Shown piece after piece: positions 2,115-55,920 of a stretch of DNA of 64,000 bases. This DNA is from Rheinheimera riviphila (lineage in GTDB: Bacteria > Pseudomonadota > Gammaproteobacteria > Enterobacterales > Alteromonadaceae): NCBI RefSeq assembly GCF_004005945.1, contig NZ_SACS01000001.1:372001-436000 (forward strand), written 5' to 3'. Positions within the stretch are counted from its first letter, which is position 1. The number at the start of each line of letters is the position of its first letter. The position numbers were made by a program, and so were the translations under genes. Under the pieces are notes generated by a model that saw only the letters and a list, made by a program, of their open reading frames with translations, was not told the origin of the DNA and did no database searches.

Positions 2115-4555
2115 TCACGAGTCCGCTATTTTGTACCCCATAGCCTTGTAACTTTTCTCACGTTTGGCAAACATCCGCTGCAACATCGGAAAACCGCAAT
2201 CGACATAGTCGTGGATGGTGACCAAAGTTTTACCGGTAGACTCGCGATGGATCCGACCGGCGTATTGCGCCAGCGCGCCTTTCCAGGCGATGGGCATTGC
2301 AAGAAAAAGCGTGTCTAACCTCGGTAGATCAAAACCTTCTCCAATGTATTTTCCGGTGGCAACGACAACTTTGGCCGTCTTTAGATGTTCATTGGCACTT
2401 TTGCGGTCGGCAGCCTTCATGGCCCCAGTGAGAATAACCGAATCAATCCCTTTATCTTGCAGCAGACGATGAAGCATTTGCGCGTGTTCACGCCGTTCGG
2501 TCAGCACTAATGGATGTCGCTGCGCATCAATACTTTGCAGGATATCCGCCACAATCCGGTGGGTGCGGGACTCATTTTCCACAATGGCTCGATAGGCATC
2601 GGTTATTTTCAGTCGCTCTTCAGGTGAAGCTGATTCTAATTTCGCAGCATCATGCAACTGATGGACTTGCACCTCCTGATCGAATTGGTCTTCAGTTTGC
2701 GATTTCACTTTATGCCTGATAGGGCCAGCTGCCATGAAGATAATTTTCTGATGGCCGTCTTGGCGTTCTGGTGTCGCGGTCAACCCTAACATATATTTAG
2801 CCCGAACTTCGTTTAATACCATTTCAAAACGCGGGGCAGAGACGTGGTGGCATTAATCCACAATCACGTGACCATAATCTTGCACCAGTGACAAAATGCT
2901 ATTGTCCTTTAAGTTGATCAGACTTTGATAGGTAGCGATATCAATGACACCGGTTGGCTTTTTCTTGCCGCCTGCTATCACGCCAATTTGGGTGTCTGGT
3001 AAAAATGCGCTCAGCCTTTCCTGCCATTGCTCCAGCAACTGACGACTATGCACCAGTATGAGCGTATTTACTTTGCGTTTTACAATCATACCTATCGCAG
3101 TCACTGTTTTGCCAAATGCGGTCGGCGCATGCAAAGTGCCAGTGTCGTGTTTTGTCATTTCCTTGACAGCAAGTTGCTGGTTTTGCCGCAACGTCAACAG
3201 TGGCTTTAAACCAACCAGCTTTTTTCCCACGACTCGTTTGTCATCAAATCGCGGTTCAATTTTACATTCCTGAAGTAACTCAATTGCCTCATCGAGGCAG
3301 CCACGTGGCAATGACAGGTAACCTTGTTCAATTCGTGCGCATGAGATAAATCTTGGAATGCCATGGGTGGAAAAACGCAGCCCCTGAGTTTTGAAAAACA
3401 CCGGATTTGCAAAGCTGGCTAAGCGTCGCAATCTGGCCACCAGGACTGCTGGAGTTTGGTTCAGGTCAAAGTAGATGCGGTCCACTAAAGTGATGGTTAA
3501 ATGGGATGGAGCATTTTTCAGGATGAACTTATCAGGTTTTGCCGTAAGCTCCCAGGGAGGGCGCTGCTCAATGACTTTCTGCTCTGTCAGTATTGCTGTG
3601 GTTGGTGATAGCAGGCTGAGTAATCTGGCTAGCTCTTGTGGTCTGACTCGCTTCATCTGTGCCAGAAATTGCCATTGATCGCCGATTAACCTCAGATCTG
3701 CATCTACAAATGAACTATTACCGGCGAGCCTTGCTTCTCGTTGCAAAGGCAAAGCAATCAAGTTGCCAAATCCGCCTTCAGGCAGAATATCCTGATTGGG
3801 AAACAATCTGTCATAGGAATCAAACGACAGATGAGGAAAAACTTCCATCGCTTTATCAAGCAGAGCAAAACCCAATAAACGCGCTTGCTGAGCAGACACT
3901 TTATCTTCAAAGAAAATCCATAAATGGGCACCGTTACCAGAGCGGGAAATTTCGATGGCATGAGGAATATCAAATTCCACACAAGCCTTCGACATGGCTT
4001 TGACTTCATCTTGCCAATGTCCTTTATCGAAATCTGCAGCAAGCAGATAACAGGTGTTGTCGTGCAGCAATGGATACAAACCGACGATTTGCTGGCCTGC
4101 CAAATGACGATAGATCACCTGATTGGACAACTCGGTGAATTGCCGGTGCTGGCAATCCTGGCATTTTATACGGGGTTTATGGCAGATCCCCTGCACCCAT
4201 TCATTCGCGCCATCCTTGGCGCTCACCTTTCAGGCAGTCACCCTGTGCAAAACGGCTCTCCTGCCGTTTTGTCGTTATTACAAGCAACCGCATAGCCACT
4301 CCGACCTTGCTTATTTTGCCAGCGGTTGGCAAAAATATCCTGTCGCCCGCGAAACAGGTCGCGAAATATTGCAATTTTTTGATCTTTGGTAAGAATGGCG
4401 TCTGAAGTGTAACTCGGTGGCGGTCGAAGCAACTCTTCCTTGCGCGCTAACAGTTGGGACTTTTCATGCTCAATCTCTGCCAGTCTGGCATCGATATCAG
4501 CCAGATTGTCAAAATGCTGTGAGCCAACTTGATTTTTAGACATAACAGAATTCAT
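2115..4555 (-). pseudogene. TOTE-type primase-helicase, disrupted by insertion and nonsense codon
   Basis: Three stretches on the minus strand together make one protein of roughly 790 residues. The N-terminal piece (to about 4274) has a coiled coil and FRDLFRGRQDIFANRW. The middle piece (2853-4226) has a Cys cluster (CHKPRIKCQDC), an archaeo-eukaryotic primase domain (LLAADFDKG, then SGNGAHLWIFF) and an SF2 helicase Walker A, APTAFGKT. The last piece (2115-2822) has LGLTATPERQDG and the motif VI region YAGRIHR. Two lesions break it. A 71-bp palindromic segment at 4203-4273 shifts the frame between ACNN and NEWVQGIC. A TAA at 2853-2855 interrupts VIVD-stop-CHH, exactly where the Glu of the DECH box belongs. 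The start is uncertain (ATG 4555 or 4543). It follows the DUF6088 gene by 19 bp. The family is used in conflict systems; this copy looks dead. Confidence 0.85.
4203..4273. repeat. 71-bp palindromic insertion inside the TOTE-type gene
   Basis: Aligning the two protein halves (ACNN / NEWVQGIC) leaves 71 extra bases. They contain two perfect hairpins, GCGCCATCCTTGGCGC (6-bp stem) near 4208-4223 and CAAAACGGC/GCCGTTTTG (9-bp arms, 6-bp loop) near 4249-4272. A length of 71 is not divisible by three, so it causes a frameshift. It resembles a REP-like or miniature palindromic element; no second copy was found in this window. Confidence 0.65.
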
Positions 4556-43498: not shown

Positions 43499-43588
43499 CG
43501 AAATAAAGCTGTCAGATTAGAGCTCTAGCCTACGGGATAGCGGCATTTTTTGAAATGGCAATGGCGGGGTTGGCGGAAATATATTGGG
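43499..43588 (+). repeat. Interspersed repeat block, copy 1
   Basis: From CCGAAATAAAGCTGTCAGAT to ATATATTGGG, about 90 bp, roughly 80 percent identical to 46660-46750. It is followed further downstream by a REP-like hairpin, as is the other copy. Noncoding. Confidence 0.7.
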
Positions 43589-43647
43589 TAAGACGGTTAC
43601 CTTTCAAATGACTGTGCAAAAGCAAAGGATCGTAGGAGCAAAGAACC

Positions 43648-43747
43648 GTAGGGAGTCACTCACCGCGTCAGCGGCAGTGCGCCATAGTCCAATTTAAAGT
43701 GGGTGTTCGATGGCGTACTGCCGCTGTCGCGGCGAGTAGCGCCCTAC
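43648..43747. repeat. Large palindromic element with 38-bp arms
   Basis: Positions 43648-43685 and 43710-43747 are inverted repeats of 38 bp with 32 matches, starting GTAGGG and containing CAGCGGCAGT/ACTGCCGCTG. The loop is 24 bp and a T-run (ATTTTTTT) follows the right arm at 43749, so it could also terminate transcription on the plus strand. Confidence 0.7.
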
Positions 43748-43782
43748 TATTTTTTTAAACAATTCGTTAAGAGCATCTTGGG

Positions 43783-43812
43783 GTCGGATCAACGTAAAGC
43801 GTGCCATCCGAC
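43783..43812. repeat. REP-like hairpin, copy 1
   Basis: GTCGGAT and ATCCGAC form a perfect 7-bp stem around a loop containing AAGCGTGCC. It is 27/30 identical to 46813-46842. Layout resembles REP/PU elements. Confidence 0.65.
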
Positions 43813-43820
43813 GGGAATTT

Positions 43821-43967
43821 GAGGGTCAACACAAAATTAAATGCTATGACGGCTTTTGGCAAAACAACACTTGCCAGCGGCTTTGCCGGTAGAATTCAAA
43901 AGTATTATTGCGGATAATTCACTTTGTGTCAGCAGCGAAAATTCAGCTTAATTTTGTTCTGACCCTC
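43821..43967. repeat. MITE-like segment with 20-bp inverted ends
   Basis: GAGGGTCAACACAAAATTAA (43821-43840) is the inverted copy, with two mismatches, of 43948-43967. The 147-bp segment carries no gene. A sequence like its right end (AGCTTAATTTTG-TCTG) recurs near 47019-47035, at the end of the second repeat block. Confidence 0.5.
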
Positions 43968-44057
43968 ATAATTTCTGGAATTGTCTGCAGTTGGGCACTC
44001 ATTCTAAAAAAACCAGACCATGCAACTTTAAGGGCAGAAACTGAGGAAACCGTTATC

Positions 44058-44510
44058 ATGAAAACCGAAGTTCCGGGTATAAACGATTGGCACGGATATC
44101 AAGACGATATGGATGCCCATTATGCGTTTAAGGTGTTTTTCGGAAAAACATTAGCAGAAATGCAACCCTGGTTCCGTCAAAGCGTCATCGAACGCACCGA
44201 TGAATTGCGCTTTATGCCAACCAAGGCGTTTCAGTACTACATCTTCGCCCTTCGTGATTACATTATCGAAAAAAACTACAGCGAAGATGACGATGATTGT
44301 GCAGTTGATTGTTTATTTAACCTGGTGCAACAGAAAATAAACTCAGACCCTGGCGCAATTTTGCCGGTGATTGACGAGTTGATACCCGCTTTGCATGTTA
44401 TTGCTGCTAATGTGGCGATGTACAACATCAACATGGACATCTACGGATCTATCCCACAGCGTCTGCAGTTACTGTTGCAAAGTTACCAACAACTGCATTT
44501 GCCCTCTTGA
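44058..44510 (+). CDS. Hypothetical protein
   Basis: A 150-residue soluble protein from ATG 44058 (MKTEVPGINDWHGYQDDMDA). It has AYVFKVFF-like aromatic content, a run of acidic residues (SEDDDDCAVDC, about 75-85) and helical C-terminus ending LLLQSYQQLHLPS. The frame is open upstream to 43908, but that part falls in the MITE-like repeat and would make an odd leader, so the shorter start is preferred. No family is recognised. It faces the convergent membrane gene downstream. Confidence 0.65.
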   Translation: MKTEVPGINDWHGYQDDMDAHYAFKVFFGKTLAEMQPWFRQSVIERTDELRFMPTKAFQYYIFALRDYIIEKNYSEDDDDCAVDCLFNLVQQKINSDPGAILPVIDELIPALHVIAANVAMYNINMDIYGSIPQRLQLLLQSYQQLHLPS

Positions 44511-44562
44511 TTTCAGAGTCGCCCTCAGGGAGTGAATTTAATGCAAAACCAGACGCTGACCG

Positions 44563-45075
44563 TTAATGTTTCAGTAGTTGTTGCTCATCCAACAACGCCA
44601 ACAATGCTGGCTCCTGATTTGGAGCAACACTCAGCCACAGCCGCCGACCATCTGTGAGCGTTAGTTGATAGAGCGGACCGGGTCCTGCGGCCAGATACAC
44701 CGGCCCATCGCTTAGCTTAAAATGACCTTTTCGGGTCCAATACAAATCAAGACCATTGCGCCGGTAGAGTTGATATTGTTGTAGTGTCCCAGGCACTGCC
44801 GTCACGCCATGCCGCGCAATTTCGCCTTGTGTTTGATACCTCAAACCATCAATCTGGATCTGACGTCCTGAAATCGTAATCTTGCTAAACCAGATTTCCG
44901 TACAAAGACTTAACCCCACCATTGTTGCAACGACCACCGTCAACAACCATACAGCACGAGGGATTGGCTGAATATGCCGGTGGATCAGCGTAATCGGCAC
45001 TGCTGGCAGCAGTATACAAACAGCGAACAACAACAAAAATGTCGCTGCTGGTAATTCAAGGTAATAACTAAGCAT
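44563..45075 (-). CDS. Hypothetical membrane protein with PH-like domain
   Basis: A 170-residue protein with two N-terminal membrane helices (FLLLFAVCILLPAVPITLI, then WLLTVVVATMVGLSL) followed by a soluble beta-rich part (ITISGRQIQIDG, LYQLTLTDGRRLWLSV) reminiscent of bacterial PH domains. No operon partner on this strand. The fold suggestion is from pattern only; the function is unknown. Confidence 0.6.
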   Translation of the reverse strand: MLSYYLELPAATFLLLFAVCILLPAVPITLIHRHIQPIPRAVWLLTVVVATMVGLSLCTEIWFSKITISGRQIQIDGLRYQTQGEIARHGVTAVPGTLQQYQLYRRNGLDLYWTRKGHFKLSDGPVYLAAGPGPLYQLTLTDGRRLWLSVAPNQEPALLALLDEQQLLKH

Positions 45076-45352
45076 CGAACTTACCTGTTATTTGTTTGTT
45101 TTTTATCATGGAGATGAGTAGTTTGGATTTTCGATTGATCGTCCACTCAGCGGTGCAGACCATGGAATGGCGTCAATTTTGGCAACCAAATCAAAAGTCT
45201 TCGCTGCGAAGTTAAATCCCAAAAACTGCACTCATAAGCTTCCTAAGTCAATAGACCAAGCACTACCGAACTGTATATTTTATTTCTATGAGTTTAATAA
45301 AGTGTAACTTTATGATGTTTTTTAAAGTCCTGCTCAATACACTTATCAGTGC
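45076..45352. other. Intergenic region without a supported gene
   Basis: About 280 bp of AT-rich sequence between divergent genes; both promoters are expected here. No repeat or structured element stands out. Confidence 0.4.
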
Positions 45353-46570
45353 ATGCATCTATCTTCAGAGGCGAGGTTATCGCAAGTGACAACCAGCAAG
45401 CGTTTTATTCGGTTAGGTTATGTCGCGCTGTTCGGCGTATTGCTGGTTGCCGCCAACTGGCTATTTGAGGCCGCCTGGTCAGATATCCGAACAGGGCCGT
45501 TGCCTGTGCTGTTGGATGATGGTTGGTCGGTGAACCAAACTGCCGCAGGTTTTAATCAAGTCGCTTTGCACCAAACGCTGACGAATGCGCTGGAAGAACC
45601 CTTCAACATACACAGTATTATTGTTGAACGTCATGGCAAGCTGGTTGCTGAGTACTATCAAACGGGGCCCGACCGTTCTGTGTATGCATTGTGGTCGCGG
45701 CCACAACATTTCGAGCCAACTACTTTGCATGATGTGCGTTCTGTTGGAAAAAGTGTTACCAGCCTGTTATTTGGCATTGCCGCTGCGCAATATCCGCTAT
45801 TACACCCTGATACTGTTGTTGCTGATCTTTACTCTGATCAGTGTGTATCGCAAAGGCCTGCGCATCAATCCCTGAAAATATCCCACTTGCTGACCATGAG
45901 TTCAGGGCTCGACTGGCAGGAAGGTGCTGGTATTGTTGATGATGAAATCCAGATGTTCTGGCGAAAAGACCTGGTTTGTCATGTACTTAATCGTGGAATA
46001 ACAACTCAACCCGGTGGTAGTTTTGGGTATAACAGTGGTGCAACCGCCTTGCTGGCGGATCTGATTGTCCGGCACTCAGGGTTATCGTTACCGGAATTTG
46101 CCGATCGGTTCCTATTGACGCCAATGAACATTAAAGATTGGCAGTGGGCCACTGATTTACATGGGCGGGCAATGGCATTTAATGGTCTGCGACTGCGTCC
46201 GCGTGATTTGGTGAAGATCGGCAGGTTGGTACTGAACAACGGCCGCTGGCATGGCCAACAGTTGGTGCCCGAGTCGTGGATCAAGGATTCATTACAACCC
46301 CGGCTGGCAACGGGGGTCAGCAATTTTCAATATGGCTATCAGTGGTGGACCGGCACTGTAATTTGGCCGGGGTCGGGGCAAAGTCTGCAGTGGCAGGCTG
46401 GTTTTGGCAATGGAGGACAACGATTGTTTGTCGTGCCGGCGTTAGATTTAGTGGTCGTCACCACTGCGGGAGCTTATGGCGACATCGAGACGGCAAAACG
46501 GGTGAACTTGTTGTTGCAACAAATCGTCAATACTGTGCTGACCGATGGTTCTAACGAGCATGAACGGTAG
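45353..46570 (+). CDS. Serine beta-lactamase-fold hydrolase (class C / esterase type)
   Basis: A 405-residue protein with an N-terminal membrane or signal segment (YVALFGVLLVAANWLF). The active-site motif SVGK (RSVGKSVTSLLFGIA, about 137-140) fits SxxK, GYNSG gives the YxN motif near 226, and LQWQAGFGNGGQRLFVVP is the region of the third motif. The family includes class C beta-lactamases, DD-peptidases and esterases; a true beta-lactamase cannot be inferred. Start: ATG 45353, or GTG 45386 with a better GAGG site. It is flanked by repeat-rich noncoding DNA on the 3' side. Confidence 0.85.
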   Translation: MHLSSEARLSQVTTSKRFIRLGYVALFGVLLVAANWLFEAAWSDIRTGPLPVLLDDGWSVNQTAAGFNQVALHQTLTNALEEPFNIHSIIVERHGKLVAEYYQTGPDRSVYALWSRPQHFEPTTLHDVRSVGKSVTSLLFGIAAAQYPLLHPDTVVADLYSDQCVSQRPAHQSLKISHLLTMSSGLDWQEGAGIVDDEIQMFWRKDLVCHVLNRGITTQPGGSFGYNSGATALLADLIVRHSGLSLPEFADRFLLTPMNIKDWQWATDLHGRAMAFNGLRLRPRDLVKIGRLVLNNGRWHGQQLVPESWIKDSLQPRLATGVSNFQYGYQWWTGTVIWPGSGQSLQWQAGFGNGGQRLFVVPALDLVVVTTAGAYGDIETAKRVNLLLQQIVNTVLTDGSNEHER

Positions 46571-46659
46571 TTCGTACTAATTTCAAAAAATAGGCATCTG
46601 GCTTTTTGCCTTTTCTGTTCGGATGGTAAAAGGCATTAGACTTGGCCGCTACTTACTTT

Positions 46660-46750
46660 CCGAAATAAAGTTGTCTGATTAGGGCTCTAGCACTACGGGA
46701 TGACGGCTTTATTTGAAATGACAATGGCGAGGTTGTTGCGAATATATTGG
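46660..46750 (+). repeat. Interspersed repeat block, copy 2
   Basis: About 90 bp starting CCGAAATAAAGTTGTCTGAT, homologous to 43499-43588. It is followed by the second REP-like hairpin and an ERIC-like element. Confidence 0.7.
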
Positions 46751-46812
46751 CCGTAACAATCTTGGTGTAATGGCGTTTTGACAACAAAAAATGTAGAGAA
46801 ACAAAAGCGTAG

Positions 46813-46842
46813 GTCGGATAAACGCGAAGCGTGCCATCCGAC
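46813..46842. repeat. REP-like hairpin, copy 2
   Basis: GTCGGAT/ATCCGAC stem and AAGCGTGCC in the loop, nearly identical to 43783-43812. Confidence 0.65.
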
Positions 46843-46874
46843 AGGTTCCCGGCTGGCATTGTTTTGGCACGCGA

Positions 46875-47002
46875 TTTACCCGTCATCCTTGATGATGCGG
46901 GGTTGTTGACTTCACTCACGCGCCCAGTCACACAGTACCGCTATGCTCCTGGAACCTCGCGCCTTCGTCGCCTACCCGCATCTTCAATGATTTTGGGCAT
47001 AG
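46875..47002 (-). repeat. ERIC-like element, reverse orientation
   Basis: About 128 bp, from TTTACCCGTCATCC to GATTTTGGGCATA, the reverse complement of the copy at 26583-26714 with divergence. It keeps the core words (CGCCCAGTCAC, CTATGCTCCTGG) and inner arms GATGCGGG/CCCGCATC. Confidence 0.8.
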
Positions 47003-47065
47003 TTGAAGCTGCTTAGATTTAGCTTAATTTTGCTCTGGCGACAATAATACAGTTGTTTATTTCAG

Positions 47066-48244
47066 CTAGCTTGCAGCTGTTTGCTTTTGACGCCGCATAA
47101 ATTCCGCAAACAGTGGAACTGTAAAATTGAGATAACCATGATCGGTGCTATACACCATCCCCTTATGAATGATGCTCGCCCTGGTCGGCCCAAGGGATGA
47201 CAAGGTACGTCCCATTCCTTTGGCAATATCAGCCATGGCATATGGACCGTCACCCAATTCTGACATCGTTTTTACGAATTGAACCTCGGATTTGGTGAGC
47301 CGATCAATTCGGACCCTGAAGAATCCCTCATCAAGGGACGCCAGAGTTTCAGCGTACGAATTTTTCACATCACCAAAGGTGATTTCTGGCCCGCCAGCAT
47401 AGTTCCATGCTGTAGATGCCCACTCCTGCAGGAAGAAAGGATAACCTCGGGTCAGTTCTACGATTTCATTCAGTGCAAGCGCCTCAATTGCAGCCCCCTC
47501 GTCGAGTATTGGCTTTTCGACGGCTTGAATGGCCGATGGTCGGTCGAGCGCATCAACCGTTGGGTAAAGAAAGAGTCGTTCGGCATAAGACTTTGCTTCG
47601 CCTGCCAGACGAGCGACTTGTGGCAGCCCTGCACCGACAAGTAGCACTGGAAGACCGTCTTGAGACATACGGTGAATAGCAACGATCAGTGCGGATAAAT
47701 CTGCGTCTGACAGGTACTGAACTTCATCAATCAGCAAGATCCATCCTTTGCCTGCTGCTTGTGCTGCTTGACCAATGACCTCAAAAATGTCCGGCAGGTC
47801 ATATTGAAGATCTCCACTATCAGCGAGTCCCGGCTCAGGCTCAACGCCAATCTCAACACCTGCAATGTCGATTTTGAAGATAGATGCAAAATTGCGAAGC
47901 CCTTTTAACCCACGATTGGCAATATGCTTCGCAGTTTCAACTCCCGAAAGGGAGCGCATTACCTTACGCATTTCCGGGTATAGCAGGCGCGCAAGACTCT
48001 CTCGTTCCGGAGACTCGACTTTGGACACTATCAGTCCTTGTTGTTGCGCGATCCTCCCTATTTCGTTTAACAGAACTGTTTTGCCTGTTCCTCTTAAACC
48101 CAAGAGCATGATGGAGCGAGCGTTCCGCCCTTTTATGGCACGGCCACATGAAACTCTGGCCGCGTCAAGAATAGTATCACGGCCCGCAAGTTCAGGTGGC
48201 CGACTTCCAGCGCCCGGCGCGAATGGGTTGCTGTATGGATCCAT
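47066..48244 (-). CDS. AAA+/archaeal-type ATPase with winged-helix C-terminus
   Basis: A 392-residue ATPase. Walker A LLGLRGTGKTVLLNE is near 48-62 and Walker B GWILLIDEVQYLSD near 165-178, followed by the sensor region PVLLVGAGLPQV. The C-terminal part (AMADIAKGMGRTLSSLGPTR) looks like a winged helix. This is the ORC/Cdc6-like or STAND-type layout (AAA_16) of unknown role. The gene stands alone with its own AT-rich inverted repeat upstream, and the neighbourhood is repeat-rich, suggesting horizontal origin. Confidence 0.85.
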   Translation of the reverse strand: MDPYSNPFAPGAGSRPPELAGRDTILDAARVSCGRAIKGRNARSIMLLGLRGTGKTVLLNEIGRIAQQQGLIVSKVESPERESLARLLYPEMRKVMRSLSGVETAKHIANRGLKGLRNFASIFKIDIAGVEIGVEPEPGLADSGDLQYDLPDIFEVIGQAAQAAGKGWILLIDEVQYLSDADLSALIVAIHRMSQDGLPVLLVGAGLPQVARLAGEAKSYAERLFLYPTVDALDRPSAIQAVEKPILDEGAAIEALALNEIVELTRGYPFFLQEWASTAWNYAGGPEITFGDVKNSYAETLASLDEGFFRVRIDRLTKSEVQFVKTMSELGDGPYAMADIAKGMGRTLSSLGPTRASIIHKGMVYSTDHGYLNFTVPLFAEFMRRQKQTAAS

Positions 48245-48297
48245 ATCTACACCCTAATAAATATCAATATCTAGCATAATATATCAATGTATATAAA

Positions 48298-48329
48298 ATA
48301 TACCTATACATTGGTATATATAGGTATAT
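48298..48329. promoter_or_regulatory. AT-rich inverted repeat upstream of the ATPase gene
   Basis: ATATACCTATA (48298-48308) and TATAGGTATAT (48319-48329) are a perfect 11-bp inverted repeat with a 10-bp spacer, about 60 bp upstream of the ATPase start. It is likely a repressor site in the promoter region. Confidence 0.5.
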
Positions 48330-48428
48330 TTGTCATGATGCAGCGGCACAAGGCCAGTTCCTTTTCTGCCTTTTCATTGCCACTTAGCAAAATACATTCC
48401 CCCTCGCTTGTGTAGGTTGTTGCATATA

Positions 48429-48998
48429 TCACCAATTTACGGCAACCGCTTGGTAATCGGATGTTGGCGAAGACGTTGAACCATTCAGATGCACATGGAA
48501 AGAAAACAAAGGTTCTGTCGTTGCATCGTGCCTGATGCCTTCTGCATCGAAAACTACCAGTTTAAGACCGATTGGGATGAGCTTCCACCCAGGCCTTTTG
48601 CCCATTGCGCCAGATGCAGCCAATCCTGTTTGATACATCTCTGACCAATCAACTGAGGTTCGCTCAAGCTTTATCTTCAAAATGCTTCCTGGCTGAAGAA
48701 TAGCTGGCAAGCCTTGAGGTAGACTTTCAACAAAACAATTTCCGGCGTTTGTAATGGGGTCAGCAGTCGTCGTAACAACACATGCCCTGTCAATCAATGC
48801 TGCCTTATTTCCGGAATTAAAGAATGCAACTTCAAAAACGTAACTTCGGGGACCAATTGAAGGAGCGACCGCTGTGACTGTTAGCTGTGATATTGAACGC
48901 AGGCTTTGGTAATAAAATGCTGCAATAGAGACTATCAATGCAAAAGCAGCCATTGTGAGCGAAAGTTTTTCGTTGAGTGTCAGCTTGGGTCTGCGCAT
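48429..48998 (-). CDS. Hypothetical membrane-anchored protein
   Basis: A 189-residue protein from ATG 48998 with one N-terminal membrane helix (LSLTMAAFALIVSIAAFYYQ) and a soluble beta-rich domain containing VFEVAFFNSGNKAALIDRAC and ILKIKLERTSVDW, reminiscent of extracytoplasmic immunoglobulin-like domains. It starts just past the stop of the porin gene, with GGAG inside the porin end, so the two are co-transcribed. I do not recognise a family. Confidence 0.65.
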   Translation of the reverse strand: MRRPKLTLNEKLSLTMAAFALIVSIAAFYYQSLRSISQLTVTAVAPSIGPRSYVFEVAFFNSGNKAALIDRACVVTTTADPITNAGNCFVESLPQGLPAILQPGSILKIKLERTSVDWSEMYQTGLAASGAMGKRPGWKLIPIGLKLVVFDAEGIRHDATTEPLFSFHVHLNGSTSSPTSDYQAVAVNW

Positions 48999-49001
48999 CA
49001 A

Positions 49002-49994
49002 CTAAAAACTCCAGTTCAAGCGCAAACTCCAAACCCATTGATTCTCCAGCCCCACTTCTCCATGATTCACCCATTGCAACACCGGTTGCAGTAGCAAATC
49101 GGGTAGCAGTTGATACTGCCAGTACAACTCGGTCAGGTAGTCTTTCGCTGAATGCTGCTGCGTCACTTCACTGAACATCATCCCGAGCTGGTGTTGCTCA
49201 AATTGCCGCACTGCACCGAGCATATGGTGTTGGCGGGTGATGTCGACTTCGTCGTTGAGCGAAGACCAGACTGCGAATAGCGCCCAGTCTTGGTTCAGTT
49301 GCAATTGGTAGTTCAGATACCAGCCGGAAATGGCTTTGATTTTGGTTTCGTCGAGTAATTCCCAGTCGCCGCTGTGGTGCCAGAAACCATAAGACCAACG
49401 ACTATTGGCCGTGACATACCGGCCTTCCACCACGTAAAACTGTTCGGCAAAATCCAGATGGTCGCGTCCGGCAAAGACCCCGCCCATCCACTGAAACCCT
49501 TGTCCGGGTTCGTAAAAAACACTGCAGGATAACGCTGGATCATAATAAGTTGGCAAAGCGATCGCGGTTGGCGTGATGCCAAGCGGCGGTGAAATAAAAG
49601 TCCCGGCGACCGGCACAAAGGCGAACTCCAGATTCGCATCGACTTGGCCACATTTGGCCCGGGTTTCGGCTGTAAACTGATATTGCACATAGGCTTCGTA
49701 TATTTTGCTGAATTTCTCGGCATCGATATTGGATATGCCCTGCAGATTTTCCGTCAGCCCTTCGCCATTGTCACCGCGAAAAGCTTTCAGATTACCCGCC
49801 ACCAGCCAGCGATCGTCGGCCTGCCATTGCCATTCGGCGGTGAATAACAGCCGATGTGCACTGCTATCATCTTGCCGGGTATTGGATGCAACTGAATGAT
49901 CTGAAAGCAAATTAAAGCTATGTTCGAAACTATTCCCAGAGGCGCAACAGCTGGTCAATCCGACGAAGGTGCCGAGCAGGACAGGAGCTTTCAT
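49002..49994 (-). CDS. OprB-like carbohydrate-selective porin
   Basis: A 330-residue outer-membrane beta-barrel. From ATG 49994 the protein has a short signal (MKAPVLLGTFVGLTSCCASG), then alternating aromatic strands and the C-terminal Phe (LRLNWSF) typical of outer-membrane proteins. WLVAGNLKAFRGDNGEGL and ISPPLGITPTAIALPTYYDP fit the OprB family. An in-frame extension to 50054 lacks a ribosome-binding site. Co-transcribed with the following membrane-anchored protein. The substrate is unknown. Confidence 0.75.
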   Translation of the reverse strand: MKAPVLLGTFVGLTSCCASGNSFEHSFNLLSDHSVASNTRQDDSSAHRLLFTAEWQWQADDRWLVAGNLKAFRGDNGEGLTENLQGISNIDAEKFSKIYEAYVQYQFTAETRAKCGQVDANLEFAFVPVAGTFISPPLGITPTAIALPTYYDPALSCSVFYEPGQGFQWMGGVFAGRDHLDFAEQFYVVEGRYVTANSRWSYGFWHHSGDWELLDETKIKAISGWYLNYQLQLNQDWALFAVWSSLNDEVDITRQHHMLGAVRQFEQHQLGMMFSEVTQQHSAKDYLTELYWQYQLLPDLLLQPVLQWVNHGEVGLENQWVWSLRLNWSF

Positions 49995-50144
49995 CGGTGA
50001 AGTATCCAACAGAAGATTTGCGATAGGTATAGGAACAAGCTTTCGCGGTGTCAAATCAGTTTCAAAGAGTGCAACAGCTTGTAATCACTGGATCCCTCTA
50101 CTAAGGTTTGACTGGTTCAGGAATACACACAAAAGGACAACAGG

Positions 50145-51728
50145 ATGCAGATTAAACACAGTGTTACGTTAATTTCCGGCGCCATTCTGAGTTTAGTCAT
50201 TGTGCTGGTCGCCTCCTCTGTTCGCCTCACCACCGACCTCACCGATTTATTAAGCTTTATCACTGGCCCTGCCTGGTCCACAGCCGATGGCGCGATGGAA
50301 GGTACCATTGGCTTACAACAACAAATTATTGCTTTGCAGATGCTGAATCTGCAGCCGGAGCAACGAACCGAACACATGGCACTGCTCGACGCAGGCACCG
50401 AAATGGCCGATGAATCAATGGGACGGATGGTGGCGGCGAAGCTGGTCAGCCCGACATCCGTGGCGAAACTGCAGCAAATGAAACAAAGCTTTGATCAGGC
50501 CAAAACCAGTTTGTTAGTTGATCCTGCCAATCCTGAACAACTAGCCGCTTTTGGCAAGGAAAGCCGGGAGTTGCTGGCGTTTTTAAGTGCACTGGAAGAA
50601 GAAGGTGACAGCACTGTCGAGAAACAATTTGCCGTCAAAGAGCAGCTGGAACAGTGGTCTTATGTCGTCAATGGCGCCGGCCTCATATTTGGCATCCTGA
50701 TTTGCATCGCGGTCAGCTGGTTTGCCCGCAAGGCCATTTTACGTCCGCTGGATGAAGTGAATCAGAATCTGGCGGAATTAACCCGTGGTGAAGGCGATTT
50801 AACGGTGCGGCTTAGCAGTAACCATCACAACGAGTTTGACCAGATTTCACAGTCATTTAATACTTTTGTAGGCAATATCCAGCAACTTATCCGTCAATTA
50901 CAGCAAAGCAATCAACTGTTGGCCGATAACAGTCAGACCATCCATGTCGCCATCAATACCGTGGTTGAAGGTGGTGATATGCAGCTTAAAGAAACCACGC
51001 AAGTCGCCATCACCATCGACCAGATGACGCAAGTGCTGAATGAACTGGCACGGCATGCTGAATCAGCGAGCCTGAATGCCAAGGACTCCGATCAAGCAAT
51101 TCACTCCGGCGTCGCTGCGGTAGAAGAAGCGCGGGCATCGATGCAAAAAGTGCATCAGGTAGTTGAACAGGCCAGCAGCCAAATTCAGCAGGTGCAGGCC
51201 GACAGTCAGGGCATCGTGAAAATGCTGGAAATGATCCGCAGCATCGCTGATCAAACCAATTTATTGGCACTCAATGCCGCTATTGAAGCTGCCCGCGCCG
51301 GTGAATCGGGCCGTGGTTTTGCGGTGGTCGCTGACGAGGTGCGGAATCTGGCGTCGCGCACTCAAGCATCCACGGTGGAAATAGAACAGAATATCAGTAT
51401 GTTAAGTAACGGTTTAAACCGCACTGTGGCGCTGATGAGCCAGGTCAATGCCGAAAGTGATCAGGTGGCTGAGAAAAACCTGTTAGCGCTTAACATGATG
51501 CAGGCGATGTCAGAACAAATTAACCTGATGAATCAGCTTAATACCCAGGTCGCAAAAGCGTCTTCCGAACAAGATCATGCCATTCACGATGTCAGCACCA
51601 GCATGCGCACTATCAAACAACATGGCGACGATGCGCATCAGCAGGGGTTATTGGTTACAAAAACTTTGGCGCAGCTGCTGGCACAAATTTCTGCGGTGTC
51701 ACAGCAATTGGTGAAGTTTAAGACCTGA
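50145..51728 (+). CDS. Methyl-accepting chemotaxis protein
   Basis: A 527-residue chemoreceptor. Membrane helices at about 9-28 and 175-195 enclose a small helical periplasmic sensor domain; a HAMP domain follows ([20 protein letters not shown]). The signalling hairpin tip, [20 protein letters not shown] with [15 protein letters not shown], is canonical and binds CheA/CheW. No C-terminal NWETF-type pentapeptide is present. ATG 50145 has AGGACAACAGG upstream. It stands alone; the ligand is unknown. Confidence 0.95.
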
Positions 51729-51844
51729 ACCGGCTGCAGAACAGGCAGGCTGTTATTGCCGATCCGCTGCTACATCCGTAAGCCGTCCCAGTCGCGTTAG
51801 CGGCGACAATAGCACCTTGTTTTGTGGAGAATCGCCAGCCAATG

Positions 51845-52078
51845 TTATTCTTGAAATTCCCACGGAATTTCCTTTTTAAATATGGCAATTGCTTGCTCTA
51901 CAAGCTCAAGATCTAGTTCCTTTTTGTAAAGGGTCACCTCTCTTACCTTTTTAGTATCATCTCGAAAGATTTCCAGAAGCATATCTTTACCAGAATAAAC
52001 TTCGACTCCAATCCCATCCCGAACAGAGCTAACATCACTTGCTACAATGTACTTTTCGAGCTTGGAATACTCATCCAT
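51845..52078 (-). CDS. Small hypothetical protein (probable integron cassette gene)
   Basis: A 77-residue protein, MDEYSKLEKYIVASDVSSVR to KKEIPWEFQE, with the start at ATG 52078 (GAGAAA upstream). It has an immunity-like or small enzyme-subunit look but no recognised family. It follows an attC-like site directly, has a very short leader and no promoter of its own, as in integron gene cassettes. A downstream attC could not be defined. Confidence 0.65.
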   Translation of the reverse strand: MDEYSKLEKYIVASDVSSVRDGIGVEVYSGKDMLLEIFRDDTKKVREVTLYKKELDLELVEQAIAIFKKEIPWEFQE

Positions 52079-52098
52079 GCTAGTTTCTCTGCGATCCC

Positions 52099-52153
52099 AC
52101 ATAACGCCCAAAGCCGTGCGACGGTAGGAGCGTAATTAATGGTCTTGTTAGGG
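52099..52153 (-). other. attC-like recombination site between cassette genes
   Basis: Read on the minus strand, CCCTAAC (R'') at 52147-52153 and GTTATGT (R') at 52099-52105 bound 55 bp with an internal hairpin CCGT-CGC-ACGG. R'' is the exact complement of the R' box (GTTAGGG) at the left end of the same cassette, as the cassette model demands. The L boxes are weak. Confidence 0.55.
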
Positions 52154-52156
52154 TAA

Positions 52157-52531
52157 CTACTCAAATGCGTTACATAAGGTGCCCTGATGGAAGATCATTT
52201 GCCACCTCCCATTTATCAGAGACCATATTGAACATCGTAATGAGTAAATAGCGGTTTTCTCACCACCTTTTACCATTACAGCCTTATAAAGTAACTGGGC
52301 ACAATTTGGCGCTAAATGTCTCAATTCATATTCAGATGCACTGATCTTAGGAGGCAATTCTGATGGCAGACGCTCCAGAGCTTCTTTTTTTCCAAATCGA
52401 ACTCCAGAACCACCAATTTCAGTGAACTCATCCGCAATTAGTTCATCCAATTCACCGTATGAAGCTCTGGTCTCAGCCTTAAATAACTGCTCTTCTAATT
52501 CGATGAGCTTCGCCTTTAAATTTTCCACCAT
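52157..52531 (-). CDS. DUF4440/SnoaL-like protein (probable integron cassette gene)
   Basis: A 124-residue NTF2-fold protein, MVENLKAKLIELEEQLFKAE with ELIADEFTEIGGSGVRFGKK and a C-terminal GRWQMIFHQGT. DUF4440/SnoaL domains are frequent in integron cassettes and as small enzymes or binding proteins. It lies between two attC-like sites with little leader (CTCGGAGAT precedes ATG), and shares the minus orientation of its neighbours. The function is unknown. Confidence 0.8.
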   Translation of the reverse strand: MVENLKAKLIELEEQLFKAETRASYGELDELIADEFTEIGGSGVRFGKKEALERLPSELPPKISASEYELRHLAPNCAQLLYKAVMVKGGEKTAIYSLRCSIWSLINGRWQMIFHQGTLCNAFE

Positions 52532-52543
52532 ATCTCCGAGTAA

Positions 52544-52608
52544 CCCTAACAGTGCTTTTTAAACGGCGCAAAACCCGTAAGTCGCGGCCGTCTTTTATAA
52601 CAATTAGT
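52544..52608 (-). other. attC-like recombination site upstream of the DUF4440 gene
   Basis: On the minus strand, ACTAATTGTTATAAAAGACGG (R''/L'') and GCCGTTTAAAAAGCACT followed by GTTAGGG (L'/R') bound 65 bp. AAA-G-ACGGC pairs with GCCGTTT leaving one unpaired G, the extrahelical base typical of attC folded sites. The R'' box ends in T instead of C, a decay from the RYYYAAC consensus. Confidence 0.6.
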
Positions 52609-52728
52609 ATTTTAAGCTATCTGCTTTTTGAGCTAAATTCAACAATGTACAAACAACAGTAAAGATTTAGGGAACAAGAAAGAAGGCTTTATGCCCGCGA
52701 GTTCCGGAAAATTACCTCGTGGTCCACT

Positions 52729-52816
52729 TCAATGCCGGTTTAAACTTTGGATTCTGAAAGTCTTATCGAGCGCATTTAATACAAAGTTCAAGTCCTTGCG
52801 CTTTTCCTCCCCGTAA
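52729..52816 (-). pseudogene. Possible gene fragment cut by the IS1111 insertion
   Basis: On the minus strand a frame reads LYGEEKRKDLNFVLNALDKT and ends FRIQSLNRH before TGA at 52729-52731. It would be the third gene of the cassette row, truncated by the insertion sequence. When the two flanks are rejoined, a stop lies just upstream in the same frame, so the host gene was already broken or this is not coding. Confidence 0.35.
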
Positions 52817-52832
52817 AGATAATTGGACTCCC

Positions 52833-52851
52833 CCAGCTCAAAGAGCTGGGT
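52833..52851. promoter_or_regulatory. Hairpin at the left end of the IS1111 element
   Basis: CCCAGCTC-AAA-GAGCTGGG is a perfect 8-bp stem directly inside the left subterminal repeat and 40 bp upstream of the transposase start, where it may limit read-in transcription or translation. Confidence 0.5.
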
Positions 52852-53833
52852 TAATATTTAAGTTCTCACACAAAAATATTTGGAGTCCAACATGCACAAG
52901 ATAATCACAGGTGTTGATTTAGCAAAAGAAGAAATTCAAGTTTGTGTTTGTAAACACAACAAGGTGCAGTCTAATCAGGCGCAGACACCGACACAGTTTT
53001 CTTCTTGGTTAGCTTCGTCAAAACCAATGACTATTGTATTTGAGGCCTGTAGTACATCAAATTATTGGAAGCAAATAGCGCTCAAATACGGGCATGATGC
53101 TCGACTTATTTCAGCCAAACTTGTGGCGAGTGTGAGACAAAACCAAAAAACAGATAAAAATGACGCTTTAGCCGTTGCCCAAGCTGCTCAACTTATAGAT
53201 GTTTCATTTATTAACGGTAAATCAAAAGAGCAACAAGAACTCCAAACGTTGGCTCGTTTACGAGAATTGGCCGTTAAACACAAAGTGGCGATGGAACATC
53301 AGATAAAATCGCTTTTGTTAGAATTCAATATTCGGATATCACCACGCCTAGGAGGCTTAAGCGGTGTTGTTCAAGCCGTTTTGGAAGATGCTGAAAACGG
53401 CTTTTCAATGGTCTTTCGGGAAGCATTAAAAACAGCGTGGGAACAGCTCCTGCAAAGTATTGATTCGATAAAAAAGTATGATGGTTATCTGGAAAAAGCG
53501 GCGAACCAGCATGTGATTTGCAAATCACTACAAGCTTTAGAGGGCGTCGGGCCATTGAATGCGATTAACCTATACATTGCTCTGGGTTGCGGAGAAATGG
53601 GGCAATTTAAAAAAGGCCGTGATGCCTCTGCATGTATTGGTTTAACCCCAATTCAGCATACTTCCGGTGGCAAAGTGAAGCTCGGCTCTATCGGCAAGTA
53701 TGTTAAGAATCACACCGTAAGAAGCTCTTTAGTGTGTGGCTCGATGGCAGTGGTTCAGCAAGTGCTTCGACGCGTTGCTAAAACAAAGAAAGATTTGTGG
53801 ATACAACAAATGGTCGCGCGTCGAGGAAAACGC

Positions 53834-55157
53834 CTGAGGGATCCCCACAAATTTTGCAGGCATATCATACCCTTATTTTCCTTACATTTTTCCAGTCCCA
53901 ATATGCCGCCCAAGCCAGAATTTGCCTGATGGCTGCAAAGATTTCCTCAGTTGTAATTTTCACTCTGGCCAGCCTGCACAATCGTTTACCAAGGTAGTTA
54001 AACGATAGCACTCGTCTGTTTTTCACCGTATTGGCCTGAAATTGCAAGTGTTTTCCTGCCAGTTCTGCCGCAAGTCCCAGCATATAATGAAGCCAGTTTG
54101 CCAACGCAGCCAGCAGTAACAACACTTCTAATCGCGCTTTATTTTTAGTGCGGTGTGCGTTACTGCCAAGCCCGTATGTCTGGCTTTTCTGATCGCGGAA
54201 GGCTTCTTCAATTTGCATCCGAAAACCATACAGTCGGGTAATTTTTTTAGCAAAATCAAAACAGTGTTTCAATGAAGTCACTAACAACCATGGCTCTTTA
54301 AATAGCAGATTTTTGTCCCGCTTGTGCAATTTCCAACCAGAGCCGAGCAACACCGCTTTTGTCTGATATTCATGCGCCTTACTCAGCTTCACTTCGCCAA
54401 GGTATTGCGCTGTTTTCCGTGCTTTTTTATATACTTTACTGATGCTTACAAATTCATCTTGCCCTGGCAGCTGCACCAAAACCAGGCCACGAACCCGGGC
54501 AATATAATCCCAGCCCATGGCCCGAACCTGTTTTAACCAAGGCACTTTGTACCCTGCATCTGTCACGACAACGGGGCGACATTTTTCGGGTAGCATTTCT
54601 TTAAGGCGGGTTAAAAAAGCCAGGTGATAGTGCGGGCAGTTGTAATTGGATTCGGTCGTAACCATTTGCAGCAAAGTCAAAGCTCGTCCTTCGAGCGCCA
54701 TGCTGGCCCGGAGGATAAAGTGGCGTTTCTCACTATCCGCATTACTCCAGTCAACTAGGATAAGTGGCTGTTTTCCCTGAACTAACGAACGAGTCAGGGC
54801 GGTATAAAAATAAGGAACATCCTGTTGCATTGCTGTATTACTGAGCAGGCGGTCCGCTCTTTTAATACAGTGTTTTTCAGTCGCAGGGCTATCAATACCA
54901 CGACCAATTGCAGTGACCGTACACAGCCCGTTTTGCAGCAAGCTTGAAAGTGCGGCACAAACTGATGCCATGCGGCGTTTATGAAAGGATTCAGGGGTGA
55001 CAAAAGACAAAAAATCGGCGAGCATAGTTTGAACGTTCATGGCAAAGCACCGCGGTCAGGTTTAGTTTTGGCGAACGATCAGATCAGGAACTGCCATGAA
55101 TGTTCCTTTCTCGCCTAACTATTTGTTTTACCCACACCATTTGTGGGGATTCCTCAG
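53834..55157 (-). mobile_element. IS10-like element of the IS4 family
   Basis: A 1,324-bp element bounded by inverted repeats CTGAGGGATCCCCACAAAT (left) and CTGAGGAATCCCCACAAAT (right, reverse complement), one mismatch. The 9-bp target duplication GGAAAACGC flanks it at 53825-53833 and 55158-55166. Size, repeat sequence and 9-bp duplication all agree with the IS10 group. One transposase gene on the minus strand fills it. It sits inside the IS1111 transposase gene. Confidence 0.95.
53865..55040 (-). CDS. IS4-family transposase, IS10 group
   Basis: A 391-residue DDE transposase, full length. The catalytic residues lie in LILVDWSNADSEKRHF (first Asp), PVVVTDAGYKVPWL (second Asp) and YGFRMQIEEAFRDQKS (Glu, with the Y-R-E-K-like motif of IS4 enzymes). 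The sequence parallels Tn10/IS10 transposase closely, including KEPWLLVTSL and the C-terminal NTVKNRRVLS. ATG 55040. Two GATC sites lie 73-81 bp inside the outer end, near where IS10 has the Dam-regulated promoter pIN. Intact, so likely functional. Confidence 0.95.
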   Translation of the reverse strand: MNVQTMLADFLSFVTPESFHKRRMASVCAALSSLLQNGLCTVTAIGRGIDSPATEKHCIKRADRLLSNTAMQQDVPYFYTALTRSLVQGKQPLILVDWSNADSEKRHFILRASMALEGRALTLLQMVTTESNYNCPHYHLAFLTRLKEMLPEKCRPVVVTDAGYKVPWLKQVRAMGWDYIARVRGLVLVQLPGQDEFVSISKVYKKARKTAQYLGEVKLSKAHEYQTKAVLLGSGWKLHKRDKNLLFKEPWLLVTSLKHCFDFAKKITRLYGFRMQIEEAFRDQKSQTYGLGSNAHRTKNKARLEVLLLLAALANWLHYMLGLAAELAGKHLQFQANTVKNRRVLSFNYLGKRLCRLARVKITTEEIFAAIRQILAWAAYWDWKNVRKIRV

Positions 55158-55262
55158 GGAAAACGCTGTACAGCTGTTGCATTGGCCAATAAAACAGTCA
55201 GAACAGCCTACGCGATGATAACGAATGGCACAGAATATAAAGCAGAACTTTTGGCTGCTTAA

Positions 55263-55475
55263 AAAGGTTTGTCAAACAACAAAATGCTCGATAAAAGATG
55301 AAAATCAACTTGTTAAGTCAGTGGCTCGCTAAGAGCTTTGAGCTCGCCGTAAAGATTTGACAACAAGTTCGCGTAAATATCATAGAGCCTGGGATAGCTA
55401 CCCAATCAGAGCTCGTACATAAGCACGCATTTATTCTTTCATCGATAATAATGTTGTTGACAAGGGGGAGTCCAC
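55263..55475 (+). ncRNA. Putative bridge/seek RNA of the IS1111 element
   Basis: The noncoding right end folds into a hairpin: AACTTGTT-AA-GTCA (55307-55320) pairs with TGAC-AACAAGTT (55358-55369). It encloses a symmetric internal loop of 12 nt on each side (55321-55332 and 55346-55357) and a terminal hairpin GAGCT-TTG-AGCTC. The 3' loop strand contains CCGTAAAGAT, identical to the left flank at 52811-52820. The 5' loop strand contains GGCTCGCT, the reverse complement of the right flank at 55479-55486. A second region has CCAAT (55402-55406; complement of the left end ATTGG) and ACATAAGC (55417-55424, identical to the right end at 55474-55481). This is what a target loop plus donor loop should show. 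Confidence 0.75.
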
Positions 55476-55500
55476 ATAAGCGAGCCGCTTTAAAATCTGC

Positions 55501-55579
55501 GGTTTGAGGTTTTAAGACGGCGCACTGTTTGAGCGGTTCGACGTTAGCGAACCGCGAGTTTGCGCAGTCGCCTCAAACC
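55501..55579. repeat. Long nested palindrome next to the IS1111 right end
   Basis: Outer arms GGTTTGAGG (55501-55509) and CCTCAAACC (55571-55579), middle partial pairing (CGGCGCA/TGCGC) and an inner hairpin GCGGTTCG/CGAACCGC (55533-55540, 55548-55555). About 79 bp; noncoding. Confidence 0.6.
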
Positions 55580-55612
55580 ACTGATTTTATTGCGGGCTTT
55601 CGAGCGATCCGG

Positions 55613-55676
55613 GGTCGCCTTTTGTTGGTTACTTATTTTGGCGAAGCAAAATAAGTAACTCGCCGGAGGCGAAACC
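55613..55676. repeat. Second palindrome upstream of recQ
   Basis: GTTACTTATTTTG (55628-55640) and CAAAATAAGTAAC (55647-55659) are perfect 13-bp arms around GCGAAG; outer partial arms GGTCGCC and GGCGAAACC extend it. It resembles a common proteobacterial intergenic palindrome. The remaining 240 bp to recQ hold no supported gene, only two similar CATGCCGT-GCATGA words (near 55683 and 55792). Confidence 0.6.
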
Positions 55677-55920
55677 TGGGCCATGCCGTTGGCATGAACA
55701 CAATCAAAATGACCAACAATCCAATTCAGTTAATACCAAATGGGCGATTGCGCTTCGCTTATGCGCCCCTACGCTGTCCGCGAAACTACCACCATGCCGT
55801 CAGCATGAAACAAACCAAATCACCATTTACCCGATGGCGCCCAACTAACCGCGCCATGGTTAGAGACAGCCACAGCGCTTTTGATTACAATGCCGCTTTT
55901 GCCCACATAGCGAAATCACT

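Follow-up and report, generated by a model that had tools for sequence, protein, structure and literature searches.

An attI-like site that heads two gene cassettes away from any integrase gene in Rheinheimera riviphila, and its dispersed relatives as candidate cassette-capture sites

Layout of the locus

We analysed a stretch of 64,000 nucleotides of the genome of Rheinheimera riviphila, hereafter called the window, which spans C26:372001-436000 of an assembly of 4.75 Mb in 114 contigs. Genomes, contigs and loci are indicated by G, C and L numbers, respectively, and the genome of the window is G000. In minus-strand order, which runs from high to low window coordinates, the locus consists of an attI-like site, a first cassette with a DUF4440 gene, a probably decayed attC site, a second cassette with a gene of 77 amino acids and a truncated attC site (Table 1). 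An earlier note on this DNA had described three short genes or gene fragments on the same strand. Two of these are the minus-strand genes of the two cassettes, whereas the third 'fragment' turned out to be the leader of the attI-like site together with a REP-like repeat. The 77-aa protein had no Pfam match above cut-off, and no Rfam family reached its gathering score in the window.

Table 1. Features of the locus, in window coordinates (crossover point between G and TT marked by an arrow)
Feature	Position	Strand	Basis
Left part of third attC site; loop truncated at 51777, R'' box changed	51777..51826	-	45-50 bp at 84-90% to other attC sites
Gene of cassette 2, 77 aa, without assigned function	51845..52078	-	87% identity in G157, 83% in G083
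attC site of cassette 1, probably decayed; R'' CCCTAAC, R' GTTATGT	52099..52153	-	Score under the attC model; homologue in L041
Cassette 1 (DUF4440), 445 bp	52105..52549	-	G↓TT to G↓TT; homology stops
DUF4440 (NTF2-like) gene, 124 aa	52157..52531	-	PF14534, E = 4.9e-14
attI-like module without intI; crossover G at 52550	52547..52724	-	Match to the model of dispersed sites (trained on the window site too)
Promoter-like TTGAAT-N17-TAGCTT, candidate Pc	52614..52642	-	Pattern match inside the attI-like module
Second copy of the attI motif (GCGGGCATAAAGCC), direct-repeat-like	52681..52703	-	Second-best HMM match
IS1111-group element; transposase ORF from 52880	52825..55477	+	Pfam DEDD_Tnp_IS110 and Transposase_20; ends approximate, GGACTCC inverted repeats by eye
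Element with DDE transposase within IS1111; ORF 53865-55040	53838..55150	-	DDE_Tnp_1, 7.3e-18; ends approximate
REP-like repeat, other flank of the IS1111 insertion	55478..55675	.	Comparison with L132 of G137

Gene cassettes

The limits of the cassettes were read from homology. When positions 51501-53000 were compared by blastn with loci of other genomes, the matching blocks ended on the crossover points or only a few bases away from them; the G bases of these points lie at 52550 and 52105. The DUF4440 unit matched G176 (L041) over 52105-52550 at 95.5% and G230 (L042), a member of another genus of the same family, over 52153-52549 at 92.7%; the latter block shares the right-hand crossover, but its other end is the R'' box and not the second crossover. 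The 77-aa unit matched G157 (L043) over 51777-52109 at 86.8% and G083 (L044) over 51815-52109 at 82.1%. In G176 two attC matches flank the DUF4440 gene, on a contig of 3.7 kb, and in G083 the 77-aa gene is part of an array about 2.2 kb from intI. The units are thus bounded by G↓TT and recur in other arrays, with breaks at 52549/52550 and at 52105-52109 in independent genomes. By this comparison, more than by the attC model, both genes are integron cassettes. As the earlier note had observed, CCCTAAC, which forms the R'' box of the DUF4440 cassette, is exactly complementary to the GTTAGGG at the left end of this cassette.

Relatives of the 77-aa protein at 53-87% identity (L135-L144) were found in, among others, Idiomarina, Methylomonas, Pseudoalteromonas, Aminobacter, Acidovorax and Tamlana, which is a broad range for a small protein without assigned function. 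A distant homologue is located in a dense array of G001 (L051, contig C21), with more than 20 attC matches, each about 100 nt long and all on the same strand.

The upstream site

We searched the window with an HMM of 20 attI sequences (11 linked to intI and nine dispersed ones of another subtype), from which the window site and its close subtype had been excluded. The model matched 52649-52548 with 25.1 bits (E = 5.9e-7) and the match ended on the crossover, so that by sequence the locus has the insertion site of a complete integron. The next best match in the window had E = 0.37, and the best control matches had E = 1.2 in the reversed window, 1.4 in L012 and 0.25 in L125. An HMM of the 11 intI-linked attI sites only, again without the window site, matched best at 52606-52556 (E = 0.002). 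With the same model, the relatives of the window site in the closest sibling genome, G137, were weak (L131, E = 0.0029; L132, 0.18; core of L133, 1.2). These three G137 segments resemble 52547-52723 at 67-74%, and a different sequence follows G↓TTA in each of them.

The second copy of the attI motif is weak when taken alone (E = 0.16 with the HMM of 11 sites and 0.37 with that of 20), and a second match occurs at the same place in L131, L132 and L133 (E = 0.12, 0.62 and 0.075, respectively).

The earlier note had taken the upstream site for a second attC site with an unpaired G in its L'' arm. This does not hold: the segment concerned (52551-52610) lacks an R'' AAC box and has no credible match to the attC model, while the attI profile fits it. 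The upstream site is attI-like and a predicted insertion site, and this correction is a more interesting result than the original observation.

A generic sigma-70 scan returned no promoter-like site in 51700-52850. The pattern TTGANN-N17-TANNN[TG], of which the window has one instance, was found in all 11 intI-linked attI sites and in 30 of the 37 dispersed sites described below, and we infer that it represents the cassette promoter.

attC sites

The attC sites were evaluated with a covariance model of attC sites that were taken from integron arrays within the genus and aligned. A pattern scan gave 142 matches, compared with 94 in reversed sequence; 70 sites were retained by their position and strand in arrays, and 42 of these, hand-picked and mostly shorter ones, formed the training set, which excluded relatives of the second and third window sites. 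The alignment contained 147 cells in which both sides of a pair had changed, against a mean of 63 in shuffled alignments, and none of 500 shuffles reached this number. The same was true of the number of cells paired and of the covariation score, whereas the other two of the five measures were no higher than in the shuffles (both-sides-changed pairs, 320 of 500; further pair types, 343 of 500).

The earlier note had named a covariance-model search as its check, and by this check the window sites score poorly. The site at 52099-52153 obtained 14.3 bits (E = 0.72), and nothing else in the 64 kb matched at E ≤ 10; in a search space of 1.4 kb its E value is 0.016. The upstream site gave no credible match. 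Comparison with relatives suggests that decay is behind these poor scores. We read the site at 52099-52153 as a probably decayed attC site because its homologue in G176 (L041:998-1055), which was outside the training set, scores 33.1 bits (E = 8.9e-5). The segment 51777-51826 corresponds to the first part of attC sites that are intact in L071, L080, L082, L083 and L089, and every match ends at 51777, in the hairpin loop. As judged by our own model and not by IntegronFinder 2.0, the window contains one probably decayed full attC site and one truncated one, and so falls short of the IntegronFinder default for a CALIN, at least two attC sites without intI. More than one match to the attC model was obtained at other dispersed loci, for example L181, L192, L201 and L202.

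Insertion sequences and surroundings

According to the earlier note, the IS1111 element had cut the array. We found the element in the REP-like repeat upstream of the attI-like site and not in an attC site. At L132 of G137, positions 3937-4113 are close to 52547-52723 of the window and positions 4205-4405 to the REP-like flank, with no IS between them; at L134 of G083 the same IS1111 element occupies the same repeat, without the DDE insert. Because the uninterrupted junction of repeat and attI-like site exists in G137, we rejected the idea that the element cuts the array.

In G137 the flanks of window positions 43586-55861 are only 2.4 kb apart and enclose other content, so the window copy lies in an accessory block. 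The same G137 flanks were considered as an exact empty site for the window copy and rejected, as they give no clean boundary. The MCP gene upstream has matches at E ≤ 1e-60 in five of the 22 genomes, its own included, and the best match in another genome is at 52%.

Integrase and resident integron

The window has no credible match to an integron integrase, in agreement with the earlier note, and hence lacks the intI that a complete integron has at its locus. The earlier note had also suggested looking for an integrase elsewhere in the genome. One is encoded on contig C20, with 479 bits against a family cut-off of 265, and it is the only match in the genome above this cut-off. In the resident integron of G000 (L011), the attC model found no site at E ≤ 1, and the best site had 17.8 bits with filters off. 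The C20 integrase may no longer be active, given that the attC sites of its own integron are this weak. The resident integron is interrupted at L011:12432-14614 by an element that looks by eye like an IS91-type one, with xerC-like pieces.

With this, the anatomy of the window feature, an attI-like site and two cassettes but no intI, can be given with high confidence.

A family of dispersed attI-like sites

We built a second model from four dispersed sites only, the window site among them. This model recovered the resident attI beside intI in G000 (E = 0.0044), G137 (E = 0.0024) and G251 (E = 3.2e-4). At E ≤ 0.01 it had matches in 12 of the 22 genomes of the genus, including 13 places in G000, 13 in G137, five in G251 and four in G253; one of the places in each of G000, G137 and G251 is the resident attI, and the four training sites are among the matches. 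By these matches, there are about 12 dispersed attI-like modules in G000, about 12 in its sibling G137, and more across the genus. The earlier note was right about an array without a neighbouring integrase, but the array has an attI-like site in place of one of its two supposed attC sites and is no lone remnant: it belongs to one of many dispersed attI-like sites without intI.

In total there were 47 places, comprising three residents and 44 dispersed ones, of which we read 37 (22 and 15 in two sets, window included). The other seven are at C12:288067 and C20:118671 of G137, at two places in G111, and at one place each in G045, G248 and G208. At E ≤ 1, 42 of the 43 attC matches lie downstream of the attI module on the same strand (23 of 23 and 19 of 20); the sole upstream match is L196:1488-1565. 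A downstream attC site accompanies 19 of the 37 dispersed sites, with the weak one of the window counted, and 18 have none that the model detects. In copies with a readable crossover, conservation runs up to G↓TT and then gives way to a different sequence in each.

These observations bear on two simpler explanations. The first is that the family is a dispersed promoter repeat, beside which cassette genes were selected for their expression without involvement of an integrase. The promoter-like pattern in most sites would fit. We nevertheless consider this explanation very improbable, since it leaves the stop of conservation at G↓TT and the attC sites on the same strand unaccounted for, and since the homology is to attI beside intI. 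The second is that the window holds an ordinary CALIN, a fragment of an array that was moved by rearrangement or formed at a chance attG, so that its resemblance to attI has no functional meaning. CALINs and single attC cassettes are common according to two studies (PMC9024848, PMC9229058), and the left end of the array is broken at 51777, which is not a crossover point. We give this explanation equally little credence, as it is at odds with a significant attI match that ends on the crossover and with related modules at the head of other arrays.

A tblastn search with nine IntI proteins, which included none of the second intI group, found no complete intI at the 37 loci, with flanks of 2-4 kb as a rule and about 100 bp between L191 and its contig end. 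Only L189, L193 and L180 gave IntI matches, and those of L193 and L180 are short and probably represent translated leader rather than intI. In G253, with four sites and an assembly of about 680 contigs, there was no intI match at E ≤ 1e-60. Sequence comparison shows the attI homology, the cassette boundaries and the sharing of cassettes, and also that none of the sites read has a complete intI next to it.

The first cassette-like gene behind one dispersed site of G137 (contig C16, L133:3730-2960, minus strand) reads by eye as TIR-like. Dispersed arrays may include defence genes.

Anatomy and origin of the modules

We compared 19 dispersed sites with the resident attI of their own genome by blastn, and 13 of them matched. 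There was no match for the window site, L131-L133, L175 and L194, and the window site accordingly represents a more diverged subtype. In 12 of the 13 matched sites the homology begins at -167 to -211 from the crossover, while intI starts at -221 to -225. At the remaining site, L189, the alignment extends to -344 and about 40 codons of intI are retained, with the intI start at about -222.

The crossover could be read by pattern in 19 of the 37 dispersed sites; the 18 others include both orthologous pairs discussed below (L176/L184 and L183a/L188). An A-rich 3' end characterizes 16 of the 19 readable sites, from several genomes, and none of the 11 residents. It reads ..TTTAAAAAGCACTG↓TT in the window and mostly ..TTGAAAA....(C/T)TG↓TT elsewhere. 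The other three readable sites, L189, L193 and L204, have a 3' end of the resident type. A LexA-like box (CTG-N10-CAG) occurs at -206 in both residents that were scanned (L011 and L087) and in L189. Among the other 36 dispersed sites it occurs near -206 in four (L181, L186, L193 and L202) and at -145 in L197.

Dispersed sites could be the stubs of complete integron copies that lost intI by deletion, in which case the cassettes were captured with intI in cis and the window is a decayed integron. The intI fragment of L189, which tblastn also matched, and the resident-type ends of L189, L193 and L204 point in this direction and imply that at least some copies came from whole integrons; the decayed attC sites of the window would fit as well. 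Conversely, a 3' end that is absent from the residents prevails among readable sites of several genomes, nearly all alignments stop before the intI start, and IntI proteins, those of the second group aside, match at three loci only. A further argument against stubs is that the dispersed array of L181 has a piece 97% identical to one in the intI array of another genome. On balance, we judge it unlikely, but by no means negligible, that deletion of intI explains the window feature.

In favour of use in trans, the sites of two lineages match the integrase type. The three sites L191-L193 of G251 are 90-92% identical to the attI of G251, compared with at most 81% to others. Likewise, L201-L203 are 83-96% identical to the attI type of G111, G247 and G248, compared with at most 74% to the types of G000, G137 and G251. 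The sites of G000 and G137 are 72-82% identical to their own attI type, with other types about as close. L204 of G192 resembles an attI type of which the intI is absent among the matches listed for G192. Because no more than two lineages show this correspondence with their own integrase, use in trans is somewhat less sure, and so is the distributed integron proposed below.

The places corresponding to L181 in other genomes were considered as empty sites for locating the exact ends of the module and rejected. The ends are unreadable there, with about 60 bp in G253 and an unrelated insert of 4.6 kb in G137.

Cassette pool and turnover

Dispersed arrays share DNA with arrays that contain intI. 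Three pieces of the dispersed L181 array of G000 are common to the intI array of G137, at 97%, 91% and 75%, and one piece of the dispersed L187 array of G137 is common to the intI array of G083, at 93%. At two orthologous pairs of G000 and G137 (L176/L184 and L183a/L188), the upstream flank, the attI-like site and the downstream flank are the same and the DNA between them differs; the conserved downstream sequence resumes at +2118 versus +831 in the first pair and at +1348 versus +320 in the second. Neither pair has a recognisable crossover or an attC site at E ≤ 1, and for this reason the turnover is support but not proof. The different DNA could also reflect old loss and not exchange.

The L187 piece at 3805-4078 has several tens of matches in G000 (C27, C70, C42, C41, C25 and others), many of them clustered, and represents a high-copy repeat of about 100-160 bp in this genome.

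Related modules on plasmids

Among plasmid records, the attI-like module of the window had no match, but two other modules did. The L180 module was found in 42 records (Citrobacter 25, Enterobacter 8, Klebsiella 8, Kluyvera 1), the best 10 of the 42 at 79.5-80.5%, and the L202 module in 51 records (Escherichia 25, Klebsiella 12, Shigella 11, Enterobacter 3), the best 10 of the 51 at 84-87%. Moreover, the IncC plasmid pVIM-Exn692 of Enterobacter hormaechei (NZ_OR497351.1; L238) carries a module with 98.2% identity to L203 of G247 along 284 bp. It heads three genes, for a predicted SMR efflux protein, an alpha/beta hydrolase and a hypothetical protein, with attC-like junctions by eye, and neither annotation nor tblastn revealed intI within 5 kb. 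Of the four plasmid loci read, L238 has an end of the dispersed type and L237 one of the resident type; a distant tyrosine recombinase is encoded 2.7 kb downstream of L237. In L235 the final bases ahead of the crossover are gone, and ISSen4 interrupts L236. An attC-like site on an E. kobei plasmid scored only 10.5 bits (E = 2) under the attC model.

A motif resembling TTTGTGCCAAAAGCGGACATT, with up to 5 mismatches in 21 positions, is located to the left of 12 of the 37 chromosomal modules and of all four plasmid modules, at -154 to -314 from the crossover. Loci with this motif include L131-L133, L177, L179, L180, L185, L187, L196, L203 and L204 on chromosomes and L235-L238 on plasmids. In two plasmid arrays (L235 and L238) it occurs again after the last attC-like site, and it may mark a boundary of a mobile unit.

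Interpretation

With modest confidence, we favour the reading that the window feature is a cassette-capture platform without intI, on which the integrase of contig C20 acts in trans. According to this proposal, the single integron integrase would act on remote attI sites and recombine circular cassettes, through their attC sites, with the G↓TT of dispersed attI sites, after which the attI promoter would express the captured cassettes at the platform. Recombination in trans, promoter activity and the mode by which modules spread are what we infer from the sequences. The copy in the window looks old, in view of its decayed or cut attC sites.

A more general proposal, which we put forward tentatively and rate at somewhat below even, is that Rheinheimera and its relatives have a distributed integron, in which one integrase gene would serve about a dozen dedicated attI platforms across the chromosome. 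These platforms would form a site class of their own, with a shared 3' end and in most cases no LexA-like box such as the integrase promoter has, that tracks the type of the integrase in at least two lineages, and the module of about 285-300 bp, with the TTTGTGCCAAAAGCGGACATT-like left end in a third of the cases, would itself be mobile.

If a genome retains many attI copies and uses them in trans, it could insert and express cassettes at many loci simultaneously, and the CALINs of such genomes would be outposts, not ruins. A distributed integron, if true, would account for the origin of many CALINs. Related modules also reach plasmids of Enterobacteriaceae, where the array on a VIM-named IncC plasmid holds the predicted efflux gene. 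In the literature searched, which took in a minority of the subscription papers, we came across no description of a genome with many attI sites that lack intI. Such a layout would be missed and CALINs headed by attI would go unrecognised, because IntegronFinder 2.0 detects attI in class 1 only (PMC9024848).

Comparison with known systems

The attC-targeting members of the IS1111 group named in PMC11187229 are ISKpn4 and ISPst6, with ISPa11 as a member that targets REP sequences. The window resembles the former in having an IS1111-group element near cassettes; unlike these, the copies in the window and in G083 are inserted in a REP-like repeat.

Two systems are known in which cassettes or attI sequences occur outside their usual place. 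As described in PMC12901181, attG sites are non-classical genomic sites of cassette integration that diverge from classical att sites. Our proposal has in common with these that cassettes lie outside an integron and that an integrase would act in trans; here, in contrast, the sites are homologues of attI. The same source describes attI-type (delta-attI) cassettes of mobile integrons in class 1 or 2 material, in which a partial attI replaces the attC site of the cassette. They are similar in that an attI sequence occurs away from its usual place and is used there by the integrase, a use that is proposed for our sites. They differ in that our sites consist of an attI leader at scattered places of the chromosome.

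A CALIN likewise consists of cassettes with attC sites and no intI nearby, but the array in the window is headed by an attI-like module and has just one full and one partial attC site. With a sedentary chromosomal integron, the dispersed sites share the attI, the cassettes and attC sites, cassettes in common with other arrays, and a probable Pc. Unlike such an integron, they have no intI at the locus, number many per genome instead of one, and have a distinct 3' end in most readable cases.
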